From an uncultured Verrucomicrobiota bacterium (GTDB lineage: Bacteria > Verrucomicrobiota > Kiritimatiellia > Kiritimatiellales > Tichowtungiaceae), in NCBI GenBank assembly GCA_903826865.1, contig CAIKGD010000009.1:1-64000 (forward strand): DNA of 64,000 nucleotides. Direction: 5' to 3'. The notes beneath the pieces were generated by a model. It ran no database searches. It worked only from the letters and a program-made list of their open reading frames with translations, and had not been told where the DNA came from. A program made the position numbers and the translations under genes. This document shows positions 50,430-59,814 of the stretch, piece after piece. Within the stretch, counting starts at the first letter, position 1; each line of letters opens with the position of its first letter.

Positions 50430-50981
50430 CTAATGTTCGTCGCAAACATTAAAAATTTTCGTATCAGTCACCACCACATCCATCCGGATGTCATGTTCCT
50501 CCGCCGGAATGCTTTGCAAATGCTGAAATCCGAAGCAAACGCCGGCACGCACTGCGCAGTACTGCGGCAGCAGCCGGTCATAAAACCCGCCGCCGCGCCC
50601 GATCCGGCGGCCCGCGAGGTCAAAGGCCGTGCCTGGTACAATAATCAGATCGAGTTCGTCTTCCGCCGCGAAAACCGGAACCGCCGGTTCCGGAATGCCG
50701 AAACGCCCCTTGTTCAGCTCGCTGGTCAGCCGCGCCAGCCGGTAAAGGCCGACGGCCTCATCGTACGCCGGAACGTAGATTTTTTTCCCCGGTGTCTGGA
50801 AGATCGGGGTAATGTCCACCTCATCAGGCAGAGGCATATATGCGCCGACGGCCCGCGCCGACCGGAACGCATCCAAGGTTTGTAACTTCTGGACGACTTT
50901 GCCGCCCAGGGCCGCCAGACCTTGGAATCCTAAGGCCTTCTTTTGTCCGGCAATTTGCGTGCGTATTTCCGCTTTCGTCAT
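50430..50981 (-). CDS. ygfA: 5-formyltetrahydrofolate cyclo-ligase
   Basis: 183 aa. Converts 5-formyl-THF to 5,10-methenyl-THF with ATP. Signatures are MTKAEIRTQIAGQKKAL, VGAYMPLPDEVDITP, LIIVPGTAFDLAGRRIGRGGGFYDRLL, the last containing the family motif. Its ATG overlaps the stop of the RAYT gene by four bases (ATGA). In many proteobacteria this gene lies directly behind the 6S RNA gene; here a 6S candidate lies 2.2 kb upstream on the same strand, separated by rarA and the RAYT. Confidence 0.92.
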   Translation of the reverse strand: MTKAEIRTQIAGQKKALGFQGLAALGGKVVQKLQTLDAFRSARAVGAYMPLPDEVDITPIFQTPGKKIYVPAYDEAVGLYRLARLTSELNKGRFGIPEPAVPVFAAEDELDLIIVPGTAFDLAGRRIGRGGGFYDRLLPQYCAVRAGVCFGFQHLQSIPAEEHDIRMDVVVTDTKIFNVCDEH

Positions 50982-51580
50982 AACGGGCTTTCGTGTTTGG
51001 AGTGCGGCGGCTTGACGCCGCTTTTATTTTCGATGTTGATCGGGATGGCATCGTATGGGTCGGTTACATTTACACTATCTGTTTTAAAACCCTGTATGGT
51101 TTTATAGAACGCGTTGCCGGCGAACCGGGCAAACCATCCGGCGGAACACCAAGGATAGTTTTCCGCGTTATGAACTACGCCGTGGTGAACCGGGTTTTGA
51201 TGCACGTACTTTAACCGGGGAAAATAAGAACTTTGATAGGTAATGCGGCTGTCAAAATACTGGTACCAAACCTTACGTCCGGGATCATTATCTTCTTTGT
51301 TCAGTTGTATGGCCGTGACGGTATGGAGCTTAGACAGCATTTTGGGAAGCGTTCCGGGGTGTTCAGGAGAAGATACAATAAAGTGGTAATGATTGGAGAG
51401 CACCGCCCAGGCTTGCAGTCGCCAGCCGAATTCTTCAGCGATCTCAAATAAAGTGTTTTGAACGAAGGTGAGCCTTGAAGGCCTGTCAAGGTGATGACAT
51501 TTCCGATAGGTGCCGCAAGTCACCATGTAGATGCCTTGTTCTTCGAGTATGTGAAGCGGAGCATGTGGCCACTGTTTCAT
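50978..51580 (-). CDS. REP-associated tyrosine transposase (RAYT), Y1_Tnp family
   Basis: 200 aa. The HUH nuclease fold is shown by YMVTCGTYRKCHHLDRP, LSNHYHFIVSSPEHPG (His-x-His metal site) and LKYVHQNPVHHGVV (probable catalytic Tyr). These single-copy domesticated enzymes act on REP sequences. REP elements flank it: one inside its 3' end (50996-51025, translated as KSGVKPPHSK) and a cluster just upstream (51601-51706). It is joined to the cyclo-ligase gene by a four-base overlap, so it seems inserted between rarA and that gene. Confidence 0.88.
   Translation of the reverse strand: MKQWPHAPLHILEEQGIYMVTCGTYRKCHHLDRPSRLTFVQNTLFEIAEEFGWRLQAWAVLSNHYHFIVSSPEHPGTLPKMLSKLHTVTAIQLNKEDNDPGRKVWYQYFDSRITYQSSYFPRLKYVHQNPVHHGVVHNAENYPWCSAGWFARFAGNAFYKTIQGFKTDSVNVTDPYDAIPINIENKSGVKPPHSKHESPL
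50996..51025. repeat. REP element (family A), inside RAYT 3' end
   Basis: TTTGGAGTGCGGCGGCTTGA followed by CGCCGCTTTT: head GGAGTG, then the GCGGCG...CGCCGC hairpin. Confidence 0.85.
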
Positions 51581-51600
51581 GTGTTCAGGGTAAGATATAG

Positions 51601-51706
51601 AAAAGCGGCGTCAAGCCGCCGCTTCAGCTTTGCAAGACAAAGCGCTGTCGAGCCAGCGCACTCCATATTTTCTGCTTTGGAGTGCGGCGGCTTGACGCCG
51701 CTTTCA
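51601..51706. repeat. REP cluster (three family A units)
   Basis: Units at 51601-51623 (AAAAGCGGCGTCAAGCCGCC), 51639-51666 (AAAGCGCTGTCGAGCCAGCG...) and 51677-51706 (TTTGGAGTGCGGCGGCTTGA...). They lie between the RAYT start and the rarA stop, in alternating orientation. The last unit overlaps the end of rarA. Confidence 0.85.
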
Positions 51707-53017
51707 CTTCTTCTTCCGGATAGACGCCCAGTACTCCAGCCGTTTTTTGAGCGTCTCTTCGTAGCCCTGATCGGTCGGCGCGTAATAAATCCGGTCCGTC
51801 GGCACATATTCCTGATCAACGAAATGGTCTTTGCCGTTGTGGGCGTATTTATATTTCACATCGCCCTTGCCGGGATGCGGCGCATTTTTGAGATGATCGG
51901 GCACCGGCAGGGTGCGCCCGTTTTCCACATCGGCCAGCGCCGCGTCAATGGCGAGATAACTCGCGTTGCTCTTGGGTGCGCAGGCGAGATAGGTTGTCGC
52001 TTGCGCCAGAATGATGCGGGCTTCCGGCATGCCGACAAAATCCACCGCCTGTATCGCCGCTGTCGCCACCGACAGTCCGCGCGGATCGGCATTACCGATA
52101 TCTTCGGAGGCGAGAATCACCAGCCGCCGCGCGATAAAACGCGGGTCTTCGCCCGCATAAATCATTTTCGCCAGCCAGTAGATCGCCGCATTCGGGTCGG
52201 AGCCGCGCACGCTTTTGATGAACGCCGAAATAGTATCGTAGTGCTCGTCCTCGTCGTGATCGTACGAAACCGCTTTTTTCTGAACGGATTCTTCCGTTTC
52301 ATGGCGCGTCAGGTGGACGATGCCGTTTTCGCCGGGCGGCGTAGTGAGCGCGGCGATTTCAAGTGCGTTGAGTGCGCGCCGCGCATCGCCTTCGCAAACG
52401 GTCGCCAGATGCGCCAGTGCATCGGCATCGGCGGTGACCAGCCCGTTGAGTCCTGCCGGATGTTCCATGGCGCGCTTCAGTACGGACTTGATCGCCTCTT
52501 CGCTGAGCGGGTTGAGCTGGAAAATCTGGGAGCGGGAGTTGAGCGGCGTGTTAATGAAAAAGAATGGATTATGCGTCGTCGCGCCGATCAGAATAATGTC
52601 GCCGCTTTCGACATAGGGCAGGAGAACATCCTGCTGCGATTTGTTGAAGCGGTGGATTTCGTCGATGAAGAGAATGGTGTCCTGCTTATGGATTTTTTTC
52701 CATCCGGCGGCCTGTTCAAGCAGTTTGCGCAGAATGGCAACGTTGGCCAGTACGCCGCTGGTGCGCTCGAACCGGCGGTCGGTAACCAGCGCAATCACCT
52801 CGGCCAGCGAAGTTTTGCCGCAGCCGGGCGGGCCGTAAAGAATGACGCTCGAAATGCGATCGGCCTCAATCGCGCGGCGCAGCAGCTTGCCCGCGCCGAG
52901 GATATGATCCTGTCCGGCGATTTCGTCGAGCGTGCGCGGACGCATCCGCGCCGCCAGCGGCGCGGTGCCTGCCCCCGGGTTCGGGCGACCGGACGGTTTT
53001 TCCTCAAAAAGTTCCAT
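51704..53017 (-). CDS. rarA: Replication-associated recombination protein A (RarA/MgsA AAA+ ATPase)
   Basis: 437 aa. AAA+ clamp-loader-like ATPase acting at stalled replication forks. Features: RMRPRTLDEIAGQDHILG, Walker A ILYGPPGCGKTSLAEV, Walker B FIDEIHRFNKSQQD, ATTHNPFFFINTPLNSRSQIF, sensor EGDARRALNALE, and the C-terminal tetramerisation part (SDPNAAIYWLAKMIYAGEDPRFIARRLV). The ATG at 53017 gives the normal N-terminus MELFEEKPSGRP. It follows the 6S RNA candidate on the same strand; a REP pair and a terminator intervene. Confidence 0.95.
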   Translation of the reverse strand: MELFEEKPSGRPNPGAGTAPLAARMRPRTLDEIAGQDHILGAGKLLRRAIEADRISSVILYGPPGCGKTSLAEVIALVTDRRFERTSGVLANVAILRKLLEQAAGWKKIHKQDTILFIDEIHRFNKSQQDVLLPYVESGDIILIGATTHNPFFFINTPLNSRSQIFQLNPLSEEAIKSVLKRAMEHPAGLNGLVTADADALAHLATVCEGDARRALNALEIAALTTPPGENGIVHLTRHETEESVQKKAVSYDHDEDEHYDTISAFIKSVRGSDPNAAIYWLAKMIYAGEDPRFIARRLVILASEDIGNADPRGLSVATAAIQAVDFVGMPEARIILAQATTYLACAPKSNASYLAIDAALADVENGRTLPVPDHLKNAPHPGKGDVKYKYAHNGKDHFVDQEYVPTDRIYYAPTDQGYEETLKKRLEYWASIRKKK

Positions 53018-53067
53018 GGCGGAGATTTAACCACTAATCAGTACTGATCGACACTAATTTTAATCAA

Positions 53068-53147
53068 TTTGGAGTGCGGCGGCTTGACGCCGCTTTTCTT
53101 CATAACTCGTTTTTGGTCAAAGCGCTGTCGAGCCAGCGCACTCCAAA
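53068..53147. repeat. REP pair (REPIN-like, family A)
   Basis: A forward unit (TTTGGAGTGCGGCGGCTTGA... at 53068-53098) and an inverted unit (AAAGCGCTGTCGAGCCAGCG... ending ACTCC at 53119-53147) form an 80 bp element between rarA and the terminator of the 6S region. Confidence 0.85.
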
Positions 53148-53150
53148 AAA

Positions 53151-53178
53151 AACCGCTCCGGTTTTCACCGAAGCGGTT
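53151..53178 (-). terminator. Second terminator behind the 6S RNA candidate
   Basis: AACCGCTcCGGT and ACCGaAGCGGTT form an 11-pair stem with a TTTC loop. On the minus strand a run of T follows (A-run 53145-53152), so it ends minus-strand transcripts that read past the 6S terminator. Confidence 0.7.
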
Positions 53179-53180
53179 TT

Positions 53181-53380
53181 AAAAAAGAGCCCGTGCCGGA
53201 GAGGCTCATTTCCGAACCCTGATTTACAAGGTGGGCGCCCTAAAGTGAAGATGGAATACATCAGCACTGTCCTGAGCGCCCTATATTTTATTGTTATCGG
53301 ATCGGAAACTTGTTGCCAGACCGGGCGGGCTTAAATTTTAAAGAACACCGTGAGAGTTCTGCTTCTTCTCTTCCTCACGT
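53181..53380 (-). ncRNA. ssrS: 6S RNA candidate
   Basis: No protein fits here, but an RNA gene does. A consensus promoter (53414-53386) predicts a start near 53380, and GAGCC/GGGCTC plus six T ends it at 53181. Folded on the minus strand it shows the 6S plan. A closing stem pairs GCCCGCCCGG with CCGGCACGGGC (53330-53321 with 53199-53189). The next helix pairs TTTCCGATCC with GGTTCGGAAA (53308-53299 with 53218-53209). A large open bubble is followed by an upper stem GGGCGC/GCGCCC (53281-53276 with 53238-53233). The 3' side CCCACCTTGTAAATCAGGGT recalls CACCTTGAACC...GGTTCAAG of other 6S RNAs. Synteny with ygfA supports it. Confidence 0.72.
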
Positions 53381-53385
53381 CTCAG

Positions 53386-53414
53386 ATATTACGCCCGCAG
53401 TATTTTGGCGTCAA
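53386..53414 (-). promoter_or_regulatory. Promoter of the 6S RNA candidate
   Basis: Minus strand: TTGACG (53414-53409), 17 bp, TAATAT (53391-53386). One mismatch in the -35 box and two in the -10 box make it one of the strongest sigma-70-type promoters in the window. Confidence 0.7.
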
Positions 53415-53475
53415 CCTCAACCTTCACGGATAATATTGCTGCACAGGATATCCGTATTTGGACAATTTCCGAGTG

Positions 53476-53646
53476 TTACAGCCGCCACCAGTCCTCTGCG
53501 GCAGAGTTCGCCTGCAACAAAGAACTGACTTGAATTGCCTCTTGAGCTTTTTTCTTCAGCCACCAGCTCCTCCAATTTTTAAAACCACTGAGTTCATGTT
53601 CTTGAAAATGCGCCCAAAGATCACGAAGAGTTAGCCGTGGTTGCAA
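53476..53646 (-). other. Possible out-of-frame extension of the small hydrophobic protein
   Basis: An open frame of 56 codons (from a TTG) overlaps the end of the 64-residue membrane protein by 16 bp in another frame. It reads LTLRDLWAHFQEHELSGFKN...WWLKKKAQEA...SAAEDWWRL, which looks like a plausible amphipathic, Trp-rich cytoplasmic tail. It could be the C-terminus of the upstream gene after a frameshift, or chance. Apart from this, nothing is recognised in 53415-53630. Confidence 0.3.
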
Positions 53647-53825
53647 ACGGTAATCAGCAGGGCTATCAACAGCAGGAAAACTATCGGTCGCCAGAAGTAG
53701 ATCAAGATTCCAAGCAAAAGCAGCAGAACAATCAATGGAATGGCCACCATTACCAGAAATTTTAAAAGAAAAGAGAGCACCATAAGAAAAAATACAAAGA
53801 CAAGACCTAGGATCTCTAACGACAT
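53631..53825 (-). CDS. Small hydrophobic membrane protein
   Basis: 64 aa, almost wholly hydrophobic: LGLVFVFFLMVLSFLLKFLVMVAIPLIVLL and a further segment YFWRPIVFLLLIALLITV, so two or three membrane helices. GGGAAA precedes the ATG weakly. It is last in a minus-strand series of five genes and lies 41 bp after the two-TM coiled-coil protein. No family is recognised. The downstream frame may continue it through a frameshift. Confidence 0.55.
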   Translation of the reverse strand: MSLEILGLVFVFFLMVLSFLLKFLVMVAIPLIVLLLLLGILIYFWRPIVFLLLIALLITVCNHG

Positions 53826-53866
53826 ACGTTTTCCCGAATTTTACAATCATTGCATTTGCTGATCGT

Positions 53867-54898
53867 CTACAGGCGCAACTTTTTATCCACCTTTTCACCT
53901 TGAACCATTTCTACGGCCCGTACGGTGCATTTAAGGAAGCTATTGCGAAGTTTCTGGTACTCTTCCTCGGTTGTCAGTCCGATGCTATATCCGCGATATT
54001 TAGCGGAATAAGTCCATAATGGCTCGGGAAAATCAGTGGGTTTTTCATCTGGAGAAGCCCAAATTCCAACCTTGGGAGTTTTCCCCATAGACATATAAAA
54101 GCAGTTCTTCACCTTTCCTGATTCCTGCACTACCGTAACGAACGAAATCGCCGTTTTAGTAAACTTCAACGGGCCGATGTCCGTGAATTTATTCGAAATT
54201 TCTGAATGCATATCCTCGGCAACCCGCAAAGCCAGTTTGCTCGGTCCTTCAAGTCCGCGTTCTTTCTGAACCCCCAGCCACTCATTCTTTCCGCCGGCAA
54301 TGTAATTAATCCTGCCGCTTACCTTGTTTTGCAGCGCCTGATTTGTCTTCTCCATCTTTTGAAACACGGTATGAATCTGGCTTGCGTTTGCCTGTGAAAG
54401 TCCTAATTCCTTTCTGAAATACAGGCTCATTTCCATCAGGTCGCTGAGAATATCGGGCGTGATAATAATATCCTCGGCCTTATCACCGTCTGTATCGCCG
54501 GGCTCACCTGCGATTTTTTTATACATCTCCGTGTATTTCTCAATAATTTCATCGGAGGCGAGCATCGCAATACGCATAGACATAAACTGAAGAGCCTTAA
54601 CTTCAGCGGCATCAATGACCCCGTCCTCAAGAATGCCGTCGAACCTATCTAGCACCTCGTTGAACAATTTGAGCCGCTCATCAAAGACACGCTGATCGCG
54701 AGACTTCTCCTGTTCCACCTCAGTCTGTTTATTCAACAGAACCATCGTGATGGTTGCGGCGAAAATGGTACCAAAAGCCGCTGAAGCAAACTGCAATGCT
54801 GTTTGATCCTTTAATAATTCGAATAGCGGGCGGAAGCCAAAAGCCGCCGCCCCAGCCAGTACAATTACCCCGACGAATGCGCCGTTTATTTTTTTCAT
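53867..54898 (-). CDS. Unrecognised two-TM, coiled-coil protein
   Basis: 343 aa. Two N-terminal membrane helices (FVGVIVLAGAAAFGFRPLF and ASAAFGTIFAATITMVLL) are followed by a charged, probably coiled-coil stretch (EVEQEKSRDQRVFDERLKLF), a helical middle part, and from about residue 230 a beta-rich part (FTKTAISFVTVVQESGKVKN...WTYSAKYRGYSIGL). The topology suggests a cytoplasmic sensor or structural domain tethered to the inner membrane. No known domain is seen. It lies 13 bp behind the DUF4236 gene, so the two are probably co-expressed. Confidence 0.75.
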   Translation of the reverse strand: MKKINGAFVGVIVLAGAAAFGFRPLFELLKDQTALQFASAAFGTIFAATITMVLLNKQTEVEQEKSRDQRVFDERLKLFNEVLDRFDGILEDGVIDAAEVKALQFMSMRIAMLASDEIIEKYTEMYKKIAGEPGDTDGDKAEDIIITPDILSDLMEMSLYFRKELGLSQANASQIHTVFQKMEKTNQALQNKVSGRINYIAGGKNEWLGVQKERGLEGPSKLALRVAEDMHSEISNKFTDIGPLKFTKTAISFVTVVQESGKVKNCFYMSMGKTPKVGIWASPDEKPTDFPEPLWTYSAKYRGYSIGLTTEEEYQKLRNSFLKCTVRAVEMVQGEKVDKKLRL

Positions 54899-54911
54899 TA
54901 AGCCCTTATTG

Positions 54912-55103
54912 CTATTTCTTTCCAGACCGTGTGGTTACATGTCGAATGCCGGTTCCCGGAATGCTCAAGGTCGTCCGCGTTACCCCGTTCGGCGAAGTCC
55001 CAATCCGGAACCCTTTAAAGCCAAAACTGAGCCCAACACCAGATTTAGAGAGATTGATATTGACCGGGCCAAGTTTAATTTTTTTTCTGAATTGCAGTCC
55101 CAT
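54912..55103 (-). CDS. DUF4236 domain protein
   Basis: 63 aa from ATG 55103, chosen for AGGAG 5 bp upstream. The sequence MGLQFRKKIKLGPVNINLSK continues SGVGLSFGFKGFRIGTSPNG and ends in a predicted beta pattern with LSIPGTGIRHVT. This is the DUF4236 pattern (FRKSIKLGPG..NLSKSGVS....G...G.PGTG). Function of the domain is unknown; it often sits at the N-terminus of larger envelope-related proteins, and here it stands alone. It is third of five genes in the cluster. Confidence 0.85.
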   Translation of the reverse strand: MGLQFRKKIKLGPVNINLSKSGVGLSFGFKGFRIGTSPNGVTRTTLSIPGTGIRHVTTRSGKK

Positions 55104-55152
55104 ATACACTCCTAATCTTTATTCCTTTTTTTGAGCTTAAAAATGCTGTCAG

Positions 55153-55587
55153 TTAGCGGGAGAGCAACACTACGACCACGATTACGACCACAATTATAAT
55201 AGCGATCAACCCCGTCTTGTTTGACTTCTTTGTGGGCACATCGACATCGTTTGTTGTGCTGGCGGCATTCGACTTCCCAGACAAGCTGGTAAGCGTCACG
55301 CCATTGTCTGCCAAATTCCTCTGAAGGTCTTCGATTTGTACTTTGACACCCAGAACATCCAAGAATTTTTTCTCTACATTGCCGACCAGCATTTTCCCAT
55401 TAATTTCGATAGCTCCTTCCGGGCTCCATTCTTTGCTTGTTTTATCAGTCCGTACGCGGGCCAGCGTCGTACTGTCATCAGCAAATTTAACGCCATTATA
55501 GATTCTGATGCCGACACCATAGGCGGCTTTAAATTCATTTTTTAACGTTTCAACCTTTGTTCTGCCATGCGCACTGATATGGGCCAT
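55153..55587 (-). CDS. Small paralogue pair member with C-terminal TM anchor
   Basis: 144 aa from ATG 55587 (AAGGAG upstream). The N-terminal 100 residues (TKVETLKNEFKAAYGVGIRI, then YNGVKFADD, GAIEINGKMLVGNVEKKFLD, LGVKVQIEDL) match the protein encoded directly upstream. A Ser/Thr/Asn linker leads to a C-terminal membrane helix (TGLIAIIIVVVIVVVVLLSR), so this copy is tail-anchored with its domain inside the cell. The family is one I cannot name. The pair looks like a duplicated domain of which one copy acquired a membrane anchor. Confidence 0.8.
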   Translation of the reverse strand: MAHISAHGRTKVETLKNEFKAAYGVGIRIYNGVKFADDSTTLARVRTDKTSKEWSPEGAIEINGKMLVGNVEKKFLDVLGVKVQIEDLQRNLADNGVTLTSLSGKSNAASTTNDVDVPTKKSNKTGLIAIIIVVVIVVVVLLSR

Positions 55588-55652
55588 AAAAATCTCCTTA
55601 GAAATTAGAACTGCCATCCGGAGGAACGCTCCCTCCGGATGGTTATATTTGC

Positions 55653-55949
55653 TTATTTACACAGGGAAGCCAGCGTAACGGAGTTGTCCGCCAGCTCGCC
55701 GTCTTTGTTCTCGACCTGCACCTTAACCCCGAGTTGCTCCATAAATTTCTTTTCAAGGTTTCCGGCCAGCATCTTGGCGTTGATCGCAATTTCACCCTCT
55801 TTTTTCTCTGTGCGGACAGACGCGAGAGAGGCGTCATCATCGGCAAATTTAACACCATTGTAGATTCTGATTCCAACGCCGTATGCCGCTTTGAATTCTT
55901 TCTTGAACGTCCCGACCTTTTTTCTTCCATTTGCTGTGATCTGAGCCAT
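55653..55949 (-). CDS. Small soluble paralogue pair member
   Basis: 98 aa from ATG 55949 (AAGGAG upstream). MAQITANGRKKVGTFKKEFK, then AAYGVGIRIYNGVKFADDDA, IAINAKMLAGNLEKKFME and LGVKVQVENKDGELADN align residue by residue with the tail-anchored paralogue downstream. It lacks the linker and membrane helix and should be cytoplasmic. It is the first gene of the minus-strand cluster; 65 bp separate it from its paralogue. Function unknown. Confidence 0.8.
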   Translation of the reverse strand: MAQITANGRKKVGTFKKEFKAAYGVGIRIYNGVKFADDDASLASVRTEKKEGEIAINAKMLAGNLEKKFMEQLGVKVQVENKDGELADNSVTLASLCK

Positions 55950-56024
55950 TTTCCTGTCTCCTTGGTTGCGGTTTCTGTTTAGGGAATCCGCCCAAAAAAA
56001 GAGCGCGGACTCCAAGCCCACGTC

Positions 56025-56137
56025 TCATCTGAGGTATCGCCAGACACCTTGTCGGAAACATGAAACAAGGAGCCGCGCCACAGGGGCGCGTTCCCGTTCA
56101 GTTGTTTCCGACACAAAAACTGGCGATTTTCAGATGA
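56025..56137. repeat. Long hairpin element with imperfect 34-bp inverted repeats
   Basis: Arms at 56025-56059 and 56104-56137 share CAGATGA, CTGGCGAT and GTTTCCGACA in order, as complements. The loop contains another stem (CGCGCC/GGCGCG near 56075-56090). It lies right upstream of the cluster 53631-55949. It may be a MITE, a structured leader or a phage-type attachment element. Confidence 0.6.
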
Positions 56138-56303
56138 AACAAAACTGCGCGTTAACGCATTAAAATTTGGCCGCTTTCCGCGGCAGTTATCAGTTCATAG
56201 TTAATTGGTTTCAGTTTCTTATTTGAAAAGCGATGCTCTTGCATCACAGAGCCGAAAATAATCTTCGCGCTCGGCTTTGCACAGCAGTTTCTGGAGAAAT
56301 ATG

Positions 56304-56386
56304 CTCTGGAGTGCGGCGGCTGGACGCCGCTTTGCATTTTTCTCTGGTTTAAGTGAAAGCGGTCTCAAGCGACCGCACTCCAAAAA
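56304..56386. repeat. REP pair (REPIN-like, family A)
   Basis: Forward unit CTCTGGAGTGCGGCGGCTGG(ACGCCGC) at 56304-56334 and inverted unit GAAAGCGGTCTCAAGCGACC(GCACTCC) at 56355-56386. One stem differs from the other copies by compensating bases (GCGGTC/GACCGC), so hairpin shape is kept. Confidence 0.8.
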
Positions 56387-56475
56387 ATCTGCACGGTCAC
56401 GTTCCACCGTTTGCGGCTTAGCGCCTTTGCGAGAGAACTTTTTATCCTTCGCGGATAACAGCGGGGCAACAGCTA

Positions 56476-56874
56476 TTATGACCAGTCGGCTATGTTCAAC
56501 CCTTTGATTCGTTTAAAATCACGGGTGTTGTTGGTAACGAGCGTTGCGTCAACCGATCTGGCATGAGCTGCAATCAGCAAATCCATAGCCCCGACCGGAG
56601 TTCCATCCCGTTCCAGTTGCGCCCGGATTTCTCCGTAGTGTTGCGCCGCCGAGGGAGCGAATGGAAGAATTGTGAGCGGGGACAGAAATTCCATGAGAGC
56701 CAACCGGTTTTTTTCCGGATCAGCACTTTTTTCGCATCCGTACTCGAGTTCGCTGACTGTGATCGAGGAGATCAGCAAATCTTCAGGGCGGTGCAGGGTG
56801 ATCCGTTTTATGACTGCCGGGTTTTTCTGCCGGATGATAAAAATGCAGATATTGGTATCCAGCATGTATTGCAT
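56476..56874 (-). CDS. vapC: VapC family PIN-domain toxin
   Basis: 132 aa. PIN-domain ribonuclease, a toxin that cleaves tRNA or rRNA when free. The acidic active-site residues are in place: Asp in MLDTNICIFII, Glu in SITVSELEYG, Asp in GAMDLLIAAHA and Asp in VTNNTRDFKRI. Its ATG shares one base with the stop of vapB (TGATG), the usual type II toxin-antitoxin layout. It closes the A/T-rich island next to pheT. Confidence 0.93.
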   Translation of the reverse strand: MQYMLDTNICIFIIRQKNPAVIKRITLHRPEDLLISSITVSELEYGCEKSADPEKNRLALMEFLSPLTILPFAPSAAQHYGEIRAQLERDGTPVGAMDLLIAAHARSVDATLVTNNTRDFKRIKGLNIADWS

Positions 56875-57098
56875 CAGAAGACCCGCTGATCAAGTTCCGG
56901 CTGTTTACGCTCCTCCATAAAATCGCCGGTAAAGCGCTTGAGGCTGGCAACAAAACCTGCCCAGGGAGTTTTACGGGGGATGAGCATAATGACTCCGTCG
57001 AGGCTGGTAATAAAAACATCAGATCCATCCAGACGGTATTCTTTCGGCAGGCGTACTGCCTGACTGCGACCATTATTAAAAAGTTTGGCGGTTTGCAT
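56874..57098 (-). CDS. vapB: VapB family antitoxin
   Basis: 74 aa from ATG 57098, with AAAGGAGG just upstream; a longer frame lacks such a site. The N-terminal swapped-hairpin DNA-binding domain reads MQTAKLFNNGRSQAVRLPKE, typical of VapB/AbrB-type antitoxins, and the C-terminal part (WAGFVASLKRFTGDFMEERK) should wrap the toxin. It probably represses its own promoter through the tandem TATACCAAA sites upstream. Confidence 0.92.
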   Translation of the reverse strand: MQTAKLFNNGRSQAVRLPKEYRLDGSDVFITSLDGVIMLIPRKTPWAGFVASLKRFTGDFMEERKQPELDQRVF

Positions 57099-57114
57099 CT
57101 TTCCTCCTTTGATA

Positions 57115-57135
57115 TATACCAAAGTGTATACCAAA
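57115..57135. promoter_or_regulatory. Candidate vapBC operator
   Basis: TATACCAAA occurs at 57115-57123 and again at 57127-57135, 12 bp apart, about one helical turn, and partly forms GTATAC palindromes. It lies 17 bp before the vapB start. Confidence 0.5.
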
Positions 57136-57146
57136 AAAACCGATTG

Positions 57147-59582
57147 TCAACCTTCACGGATAACGGCAGCGACGGCGGAACAGACTTTTTTACCGACGGT
57201 TTCGTGAAAGGCATTGACCTTTTCGTCGGTCAGTGTGCCGGCCGCTGAGCGGTAGACAAAGCTGAACGCGAGGCTCTTTTTGCCTTTCTCCAGTGTCTTG
57301 CCGCGAAAGACATCGAAGAGCTTTACGCTTTCCAGTTCGGCAGGCGCGGCGCTTCGGACAGCTTTCAGAATTTCTTCGTGGCGGACGGCTTCATCCACGA
57401 CAAACGCGAAGTCGCGCTCGACCGCCGGATAGAGCGGAATATCTTTTACTTCACTCCGCTTCCAGACATTGGAAATCAGCGGTTCAAGATTCAGTTCGGC
57501 GGCGGCGACCGGATCGTTCAGCCGCCACTCTTTGCGCGCGGCGGAATTGATCAGGCCGATGACGCCGATCTTTTCTTTGCCGGAAAGCACGGCAACGGCG
57601 CGGCCCGCTTCAAAGGCCGGACTTTCCATACACAGGAAGCTCACGTCTGTAACCTTCTGTGCATCGAGCAGTTTTTTAACCAGCCCTTTGAGCCAGAGAA
57701 ATACTTCTTCTTCGCCGATGGCGCGTTGCTTGTCGAGTGCGCCGCGTCCGGCGGCGCCCATCAGTCCAAGGCAGACTTTTTCGGTCTGCACCGGAGTCCC
57801 CTCCATAGGAGGGGTGCCCGAAGGGCGGGGTGGGTTTTTCGCAAAGGTGCGGCCGATCTCAAAAAAGACGGCTTCGTCAATCTGGCGCGATTTGTTGCGG
57901 CCAAGGCTCTCGATCATTTGCGGGATGAGCGAGGTGCGCAGTACTGACTGTTCGGCGCTGATCGGATGAGGCAGCTCTTCACGGGCGGCGCGGTCTTCTT
58001 TACCGAAAAGGTCGAGCAGCGGATGACTGACCAGCGTGTAGTTCATGATTTCCCGCGCACCGAAACCGACGAGATTCTTGCGGCAGGCGGTGACGGCGCG
58101 GATGCGGTTGTCCTGCGCACCGGCGACAACTTCAGCGACCGGCAGTTTTTCCGGAATCTTATCCACGCCGTGCAGGCGGGCGACTTCTTCGATCATATCC
58201 ACTTCGCGTTCGAGGTCGTCGCGGAAGGCCGGAATTTCCAGCACCGCTTTTTCCGCATCGCTGGAGAGAATAACAATTTCCAAAGCCTGGAAAATTTTCT
58301 TCATCGTTTCGACCGGCACGTCGAGGCCGATCAGCGTACAGACATTGGCCCAGCGGACGGTGATCTGCCGTTTGGGTTTCGGCGCTGGATAAACATCCAC
58401 AACGCCTTTGCAGACTTTGGCACCGGCCAGTTCGCTCATCAGCGCGGCGGCGCGGCGGCTGGCCCATTCGACGGTGGCGGCGCTGACGCCGCGCTGGTAG
58501 CGGTAAGAACTTTCCGTGAAGAGGCCTAGCCCTTTGGCCGTGGCGCGGATGCCGGACTGTTCGAACGTCGCGCTTTCGAGCAGGATGGTGGAGGTATTGT
58601 CTTTGATTTCGGTATTGGCCCCGCCCATAACACCGGCGAGCGCGACGGCTTTTCCGGCGTCGGCGATGACGAGCATTTCTTCCGTCAACTGGCGCTCTGT
58701 TCCGTCGAGCGTGGTGAACTTTTCATCCTTGGCGGCGCGGCGGACGATAATTTTGCCGTCCTTGAGCAGCGTGTAGTCGAAGGCGTGCAACGGGTGACCG
58801 GTTTCGAGCAGAACGTAGTTGGTGACGTCCACGACGTTGTTGATCGAACGGATGCCGCAGGCTTCGAGGCGGCGCTTCATCCAGTCGGGCGACGGGCCGA
58901 TCTTGGCGCCTTTCAGAACGCGGGCGGTATAGCGCGGGCATTTGCCGGAATCTTTTATTTCCACGCTGACTTCTTTTTCGACCGGCTCGGAACATTCCTT
59001 CAGTTCGATGGACGGCATCTTGAGCGGCTTACCGTAGATGGCGGCGACTTCGCGGGCGATGCCGATAATGCTGAGGCAGTCGGGGCGGTTCGGGGTGATT
59101 TCCAGTTCAAAAACGGTTTCCGCCGGGCCCATCACGGCGGCGAGCGGCGTGCCGGGTTTGAGCGAAGCGTCCAGAACGAGCAGGCCGGAATGGTCTTCGC
59201 CGAGGCCGAGTTCATCTTTGGCGCAGAGCATGCCGAGCGATTCGACGCCGCGGATTTTGGCTTTCTTGAGCTTAATGCCGCACGGCAGCGTCGTACCGAC
59301 GGTGGCGAACGGATATTTGCCGCCGACCGCAACATTCGGCGCGCCGCAGACGACGCGCAGGGTTTCGGTTGCGCCGTACTCGACGGTGCAGAGGCGCAAT
59401 TTATCGGCGTCCGGATGCGGTTCGATCTGTTTCACTTCGCCGACGACCACACCTTCAAAGGTGCCGCCGAGCGTTTCGATATTTTCGACTTCGAGTCCGG
59501 CAAACGTCAGTTTGTCGGAAAGCCCCGCGATCGTGTCGTCAAAATCCACAACTTCCTTCAGCCAGCTCAGCGCAAATTTCAT
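57147..59582 (-). CDS. pheT: Phenylalanine--tRNA ligase beta subunit
   Basis: 811 aa. Tetrameric PheRS charges tRNA-Phe; the beta subunit carries editing and tRNA anticodon-arm domains. Order: [14 protein letters not shown], tRNA-binding EMAP-like domain ([18 protein letters not shown]-type region near residue 50), B3/4 editing domain ([17 protein letters not shown]...), B5 ([15 protein letters not shown]), and a C-terminal anticodon-binding fold ending [12 protein letters not shown]. pheS is normally directly upstream but is absent here. The stretch [18 protein letters not shown] near residue 590 is translated dispersed repeat. Confidence 0.95.
57798..57840 (-). repeat. Family C repeat inserted in frame in pheT
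   Basis: CCCCTCC/GGAGGGG (7 bp stem, loop ATA) and GCCC/GGGC, followed by a T-run on the + strand. In reverse complement it matches the rph terminator repeat at 46409-46453 (CCCACCCCGnCCTTCGGnCA then CCCCTCC). It encodes [13 protein letters not shown]. Confidence 0.75.
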
Positions 59583-59793
59583 AGTAAGTTCCCGAAGAAT
59601 TGGAATGATGGAACGGTGGAATGGCGGAATAATGGGGCCGGTCGAATTCTATTGCTTCCCGTCTTCACGGGCTCCCTGCCACTATTCCTGTATTCCAACA
59701 ATCCAACATTCCTTTGTTTGAATGGGCGGCAGTTAAACATGAACGGCTATTCCGGGCAAGCGCACAGGCGGGGCTTAATTAAGCGGGAAAGGA

Positions 59794-59814
59794 TTTTTCC
59801 AATGGCTGGAAAAA
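59794..59814. repeat. Palindromic motif, TTGGAAAA family
   Basis: TTTTTCCAATGG and CTGGAAAAA, a near-perfect palindrome 36 bp before the ldhA start. The remainder of the pheT-ldhA gap (59583-59849) also has loosely inverted GGAATG/CATTCC-rich tracts. Confidence 0.55.

Follow-up and report, generated by a model that had tools for sequence, protein, structure and literature searches.

Here we describe a small island of foreign DNA inserted at the 3′ end of pheT in a 64,000-nucleotide stretch of DNA (the window) from an uncultured Verrucomicrobiota bacterium of the family Tichowtungiaceae (assembly GCA_903826865.1, contig CAIKGD010000009.1). Its cargo is a previously undescribed operon that encodes two small paralogous proteins (P1 and P2), a DUF4236 protein and a protein with a two-transmembrane (two-TM) module, here called 2TM. 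The region had drawn attention before: the original prediction was of an A/T-rich cluster of five same-strand genes at 53631-55949, unlike its neighbours in base composition, flanked by a 6S RNA gene on one side and by vapBC and repetitive extragenic palindromic (REP) sequences on the other, and reminiscent of defence or envelope-stress systems while matching no known type. That observation merited closer study, though in part for another reason than the one given; the mobile carrier – the insertion at the pheT 3′ end – had been missed. Support for the carrier is good, whereas what its cargo does we infer.

The island at the pheT 3′ end

Evidence for an insertion came from comparison of positions 51500-59800 with the corresponding DNA of congeners, which showed 3.7 kb of extra DNA between the 6S region and pheT in the window. 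In five congeners (G013, G004, G007, G010 and G003) rarA and the 6S region run straight into the 3′ end of pheT, and in two more (G012 and G008) the 6S region likewise adjoins pheT, so the insert is absent from seven congeners in total. The inserted DNA, 53434-57146, departs from the boundaries first drawn in that it takes in vapBC and leaves out the 6S gene (Table 1).

The same 17 bases, TCAACCTTCACGGATAA, stand at both borders of the island, at 53417 and at 57147. The repeat is the exact end of a coding gene and restores the pheT stop codon; moreover, the sequence beyond the outer copy resembles the DNA that follows pheT in G013 (TGAGGTTGAC versus TGAGCTTGAC). We have little doubt that the insertion was site-specific. 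The island also contains a third, divergent copy of the pheT end. When the 2.64-Mb assembly was scanned with a degenerate version of the repeat motif, the three copies were the only sites with zero mismatches, and three more sites carried two mismatches. We therefore read the island as two integrase-less units, A and B, stacked at one attachment site, an arrangement that we consider probable. Their placement presumably relied on a recombinase that came from elsewhere or has since been lost; a search of the proteins encoded in the island (P1, P2, the DUF4236 protein, 2TM, the product of a small open reading frame (ORF), VapC and VapB) gave no family match to a recombinase or relaxase. An insert between rarA and pheT in G009 was considered as a comparable island and rejected, as a second pheT end is absent.

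Transposition with a long target duplication in place of site-specific integration, for example by a REP-associated tyrosine transposase, would accord with the failure to find an integrase and with the REP hairpins and the gene for such a transposase (50978-51580) close by, but a repeat that is the exact end of a gene and restores its stop, present in three copies with a divergent middle, has the traits of a site-specific island (PMC5704250), and we regard transposition as highly improbable.

Elements that keep their attachment sites after loss of the genes for integration and transfer are known as cis-mobilizable elements (CIMEs), and their stacking as accretion (PMC5704250, PMC3146451). Like CIMEs and tandem accretion islands – those related to ICESt1 and the ssrA islands of Dehalococcoides – the island has direct-repeat attachment sites at both ends (the 17 bp at 53417 and 57147, the latter being the 3′ end of the target gene), is inserted at the 3′ end of a gene that it leaves intact, has an internal repeat (56442-56458) separating the stacked units, lacks genes for integration and transfer, and is low in guanine-cytosine (GC) content. 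A further feature of the type, absence of the insert from relatives (the seven congeners), is also found. Unlike the known examples, the units are very small (3.0 and 0.7 kb), the target is pheT and the phylum is Verrucomicrobiota. As a small and clean case, the carrier appears to exemplify accretion without an integrase at a protein-coding gene.

The operon and its distribution

The genes for P1, P2, the DUF4236 protein and 2TM very probably constitute a functional operon. They are separated by gaps of 65, 49 and 13 bp, respectively, and their leaders are Shine-Dalgarno-like; the ORF listed for the DUF4236 protein begins two codons further upstream, and its leader suits the internal ATG. These four of the five genes first proposed are real. 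The fifth, a small hydrophobic ORF (53631-53825), is doubtful: its product is near-uniformly hydrophobic, its leader is weak, a counterpart is absent in G013, and searches for family matches and relatives found none. Overlapping it in another frame is an ORF of 140 residues (53476-53898, minus strand) that may be a gene remnant; it has neither relatives nor matches, though its last 60 residues are protein-like (tryptophan-rich). The distinct base composition of the cluster was borne out, its GC content (0.457, versus 0.546 for the window) falling in the lowest 0.6% of equal-length stretches.

P1 and P2 are indeed paralogues (71% identity), one soluble and one tail-anchored, the single hydrophobic segment of P2 being C-terminal (residues 120-144). 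The two halves of P1 align 14 standard deviations above shuffles (z = 14), which indicates a domain built of two tandem repeats. Neither protein matched a known family. An AlphaFold2 model of P1 (mean predicted local distance difference test score, pLDDT, 81; four sequences) has a beta-alpha-beta arrangement twice over, and its nearest solved structures are ubiquitins, at values below significance (Foldseek E 0.04, VIA Z 4.1). Ubiquitin contains GKQLEDGRTLSDY, and both repeats of P1 and P2 bear a stretch, G..[FL]AD..-TLAS, that recalls it; however, each repeat is shorter than ubiquitin and conjugation or protease genes are absent nearby. Kinship is not supported by the profile comparison with ubiquitin, for which hhalign gave a probability of 0.5%. 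Nor do we treat as a relative the first viral Foldseek match of P1, W6B1I5 of Erwinia phage Ea35-70 (E 0.011, probability 0.99, TM-score 0.53), because sequence similarity is absent (profile E 7.9); W6B1I5 is probably Ea357_128 (L098:45183-45473).

The DUF4236 protein scores 69 bits against PF14020, for which the gathering cut-off is 27. It stands alone in the operon, as had been noted, whereas phage proteins with the domain are often longer and carry it at the N-terminus. One viral contig (L116:1176-1520) encodes, directly before a tape-measure-like gene, a DUF4236 protein whose hydrophobic segment is C-terminal.

P1 and P2 are present in one other of the 14 genomes of the genus, G013 (the metagenome-assembled genome Kiruna_bin-04469). 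There the order is P1, P2, DUF4236, an extra gene of 219 residues and 2TM, located beside proA, an unrelated locus; a divergent XRE regulator lies upstream of the genes, and a gene of 165 residues and a SoFic-like Fic gene lie downstream. The sole other genome of the genus that has these genes therefore keeps them linked and in the same order. Identities between G013 and the window are 86% for P2, 73% for the DUF4236 protein and 40% for 2TM. Nonsynonymous and synonymous divergence (dN and dS) come to 0.23 and 2.4 for P1 and to 0.08 and 0.48 for P2; that is, both proteins are under purifying selection. The dS of P2 matches that of rarA and pheT (0.49), whereas in the other three genes of the operon synonymous sites are saturated or nearly so; the TM tail of P2 has diverged even less (dS 0.13; window 55153-55587 versus L005:8846-9268). 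A core-like dS amid near-saturated neighbours, together with the low-dS tail, would be a sign of recombination at P2.

DUF4236 is found in three of the 14 genomes, two of which carry the operon (the window genome, G000, and G013). Relatives of P1 and P2 were found neither among 388 genomes of the phylum nor, beyond G000 and G013, among 288 genomes of the class; the P1/P2 profile otherwise gave weak partial rows in these samples, several of them in one frame of ~820 residues in congeners. Collections of viral contigs, phages and plasmids likewise gave no relatives (one search used an artificial consensus-like query), and in a scan of genome contigs that of G013 was the sole match.

The neighbourhood of proA varies among congeners, with different accessory genes in each one examined, and the proA side is likely a second insertion hotspot. 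At L086:5540-8143, L087:6600-7800 and L005:4656-9984 the cargo consists, in this order, of a Fic gene with a membrane protein of 406 residues, a pair of 184 and 196 residues, and a Fic gene with the P1-P2 operon. No clear flanking repeat surrounds the G013 copy of the operon at proA; a 17-bp match that pairs two coding sequences (L005 4362/10137) was rejected as an attachment site.

Among the neighbouring features vapBC and the REPs are real, and the 6S gene is supported by a full-length match, though one that falls short of the Rfam gathering score, and by the conservation of its DNA next to pheT in congeners. This lineage may be poorly covered by the Rfam model. The inverted repeat upstream of P1 is possibly an operator or a leader hairpin.

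Table 1. Coordinates of the island, its operon and associated features (positions in the window unless a locus is named).
Feature	Position	Strand	Description
P1	55653-55949	-	98 residues; soluble; two tandem repeats
P2	55153-55587	-	144 residues; duplicated alpha/beta domain, linker, C-terminal TM segment
DUF4236 protein, stand-alone	54912-55103	-	63 residues; Pfam PF14020, E 5e-19
2TM	53867-54898	-	N-terminal two-TM/helical module and C-terminal predicted YdhG-like domain
Small hydrophobic ORF, doubtful gene	53631-53825	-	64 residues
Inserted island (units A and B)	53434-57146		absent from the 6S-pheT junction of 7 congeners
Outer attachment-site-like copy of pheT 3′ end	53417-53433	-	TTATCCGTGAAGGTTGA; direct repeat, identical over 17 bp to 57147-57163
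Native pheT 3′ end, inner attachment-site-like copy	57147-57163	-	final pheT codons and stop
Internal variant copy of pheT 3′ end	56442-56458	-	TTATCCGCGAAGGATAA on the pheT strand; encodes VIREG-stop; divides units A and B
Unit A	53417-56441		3.0 kb; carries the P1-P2-DUF4236-2TM operon
Unit B	56442-57146		0.7 kb; carries vapBC
vapC toxin gene, unit B	56476-56874	-	NF047863, E 2e-54; PIN domain
vapB antitoxin gene, unit B	56874-57098	-	ATG at 57098; NF047862, E 5e-28; NF040493, E 2e-21; leader AAAGGAGG
Imperfect inverted repeat	56036-56127		25-nt arms; upstream of P1; candidate control element
REP-type hairpin, inside unit A	56307-56382		inverted repeat, ~80 bp
Second REP-type hairpin, outside the island	53068-53147		~80 bp
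6S RNA candidate	53185-53333	-	full-length Rfam match, 38.8 bits, E 1.4e-5; gathering score 46.4
REP-associated tyrosine transposase gene	50978-51580		near the island
Plasmid relative of 2TM module, Klebsiella	L124:4980-5672
Plasmid relative of 2TM module, Caulobacter	L125:4953-5573
Plasmid relative of 2TM module, Sphingomonas	L126:4998-5630
Plasmid relative of 2TM module, Psychrobacter	L127:4980-5684

2TM and the family of its N-terminal module

The hydrophobic segments of 2TM lie in its N-terminal two-TM/helical module, which spans ~190 residues. The C-terminal part (residues 202-342) resembles YdhG (2oc6) in its model, with Z 9.8 and a root-mean-square deviation of 3.0 over 114 residues (next row, Z 6.6); the model of this region has a pLDDT of 57-84, and in sequence it matches no family. 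A search of 2TM against Pfam, including SLATT-type and other named two-TM families and YdhG/DUF1801, gave nothing above the cut-off.

Proteins that share the N-terminal module form a family whose C-termini are exchangeable. Members occur in two genomes from elsewhere in the phylum, and in one of these (G131, L119:1522-5305) a module protein with a different C-terminus stops 4 nt before a GmrSD_N (PF03235) gene, the pair being a possible two-gene restriction-associated operon. Among 346 genomes of the class no member was found besides those of G000 and G013, nor did a scan of the viral collection find any. The window genome also holds a 2TM paralogue of 450 residues with an unrelated C-terminus (L012:6453-9800, G000:C48), which adjoins a SHOCT protein, a DUF1016_N protein (PADLOC PDC-S02) and a second membrane protein.

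A tblastn match at E 0.2 opened the way to 54 plasmid records that bear relatives of the module. Profile comparison is reciprocal: the 2TM module matches the plasmid family at E 1.8e-18, and the reverse search finds the 2TM of the window at E 1.4e-10. In four plasmids from four genera the relative follows HdeD, with an MscS-type channel between them in two of the four, and in the Klebsiella plasmid it precedes the trx-GI and antiporter genes of a heat-resistance locus. That locus, known as the transmissible locus for protein quality control or locus of heat resistance (TLPQC/LHR), has the order HdeD, ORF10 (hypothetical), thioredoxin (PMC7685784), and because the gene order matches, the plasmid relatives are probably ORF10. 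Proteomics of the heat-resistance locus detected a hypothetical protein, and a figure legend of the same study places the LHR hypothetical proteins in a group with a possible link to envelope stress (PMC7010813). 2TM shares with the ORF10-type protein a two-TM N-terminus followed by a helical region; the plasmid proteins, however, are of 206-234 residues, are devoid of the C-terminal YdhG-like domain and have different neighbours. No small heat-shock protein, ClpG/ClpK, HdeD, thioredoxin or Kef-type antiporter – the neighbours in TLPQC/LHR – is encoded in or beside the island, where other genes account for the ORFs.

Possible function of the cargo

The best explanation of the data as a whole is, we suggest, a mobile accessory operon for an inner-membrane complex that acts in stress or defence, a view held tentatively and with somewhat less than even confidence; a role in either envelope stress or defence, the two taken together, is moderately probable. 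The four products would assemble into one inner-membrane complex, with 2TM as the membrane core bearing a cytosolic YdhG-like domain, P1 and P2 as the soluble and the membrane-tethered form of their shared domain, and the DUF4236 protein as a small accessory. Since P1 and P2 have one domain in common, P1 may exchange with, compete with or titrate P2. Such a complex would shield the cell when phage, chemical or heat stress damages the envelope. Several points weigh against this explanation: neither a recombinase gene in unit A or B nor a circular form or transfer was observed; linkage of the whole operon comes from two genomes of one genus; the model of 2TM is poor outside the C-terminal domain (mean pLDDT 51); and the relatives found in stress or restriction contexts share the N-terminal module of 2TM alone, not P1, P2 or the DUF4236 protein.

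The likeness to defence and envelope-stress systems remarked upon in the original prediction gains support only indirectly, through 2TM relatives beside GmrSD and DUF1016/SHOCT genes and in the probable place of ORF10, and through the Fic gene of G013, but defence and envelope stress are not separated; nothing points to the sensor-like role suggested for the soluble part. No housekeeping complex matches, and a search of the five cluster proteins against PADLOC-DB 2.0.0 gave no convincing match (best E 0.0006 and 0.016, over short stretches), in agreement with the claim that no known type fits.

Two specific roles are equal in likelihood, and each, taken singly, is possible though on the unlikely side. 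In the first, anti-phage defence, infection would be sensed by P1/P2 or by the YdhG-like domain, and damage done to the inner membrane by the two-TM module would halt phage growth through cell death or arrest. The operon lies in a mobile island stacked with vapBC, relatives of 2TM adjoin GmrSD_N and DUF1016 (PDC-S02) genes, a SoFic-like Fic gene lies downstream in G013, 2TM diverges fast (40% identity, versus 86% for P2), and in Pseudomonas aeruginosa immune systems are often found next to pheT (PMC10250203), a parallel and not a proof. Yet convincing PADLOC matches are absent for all cluster proteins, neighbours amount to association only, and the plasmid relatives sit in stress-tolerance islands instead. 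In the second, tolerance of envelope or protein damage, 2TM acts like an ORF10-type protein that P1, P2 and the DUF4236 protein adapt to the host. The reciprocal profile matches with the plasmid family (E 1.8e-18) favour this role, as do the conserved place of the plasmid gene after HdeD and before trx-GI, the position of ORF10 (PMC7685784) and the possible relation of LHR hypothetical proteins to envelope stress (PMC7010813); on the other hand, chaperone, HdeD, thioredoxin and antiporter genes do not accompany the operon, the function of ORF10 is itself not established, and its identity is drawn from gene order.

Behind both stands element maintenance or exclusion, in which the operon stabilises the island or blocks the entry of related elements. 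This would suit an operon that is the cargo of a small island, that adjoins vapBC and that in G013 has a divergent XRE regulator, but it leaves the homology to chromosomal and stress-island proteins unexplained and the operon is without the pattern of a toxin-antitoxin pair; we judge it improbable. Returning to the stress or defence complex, a stronger version – a new mobile, membrane-anchored system of immunity or envelope protection, in which soluble and tail-anchored copies of one duplicated alpha/beta domain control a two-TM effector and which is spread by tiny integrase-less islands using the pheT 3′ end – we think unlikely.

The island has consequences for the search for similar cargo and for a gene of heat-resistance plasmids. 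The repeats reveal cargo even where an integrase is missing, and a screen of other pheT 3′ ends in the phylum could therefore bring more cargo of this kind to light. In addition, an uncharacterised gene of heat-resistance plasmids (probable ORF10) is tied to a wider two-TM family, one with exchangeable C-terminal domains and a member directly beside a restriction gene, and this connection offers hypotheses for its function.

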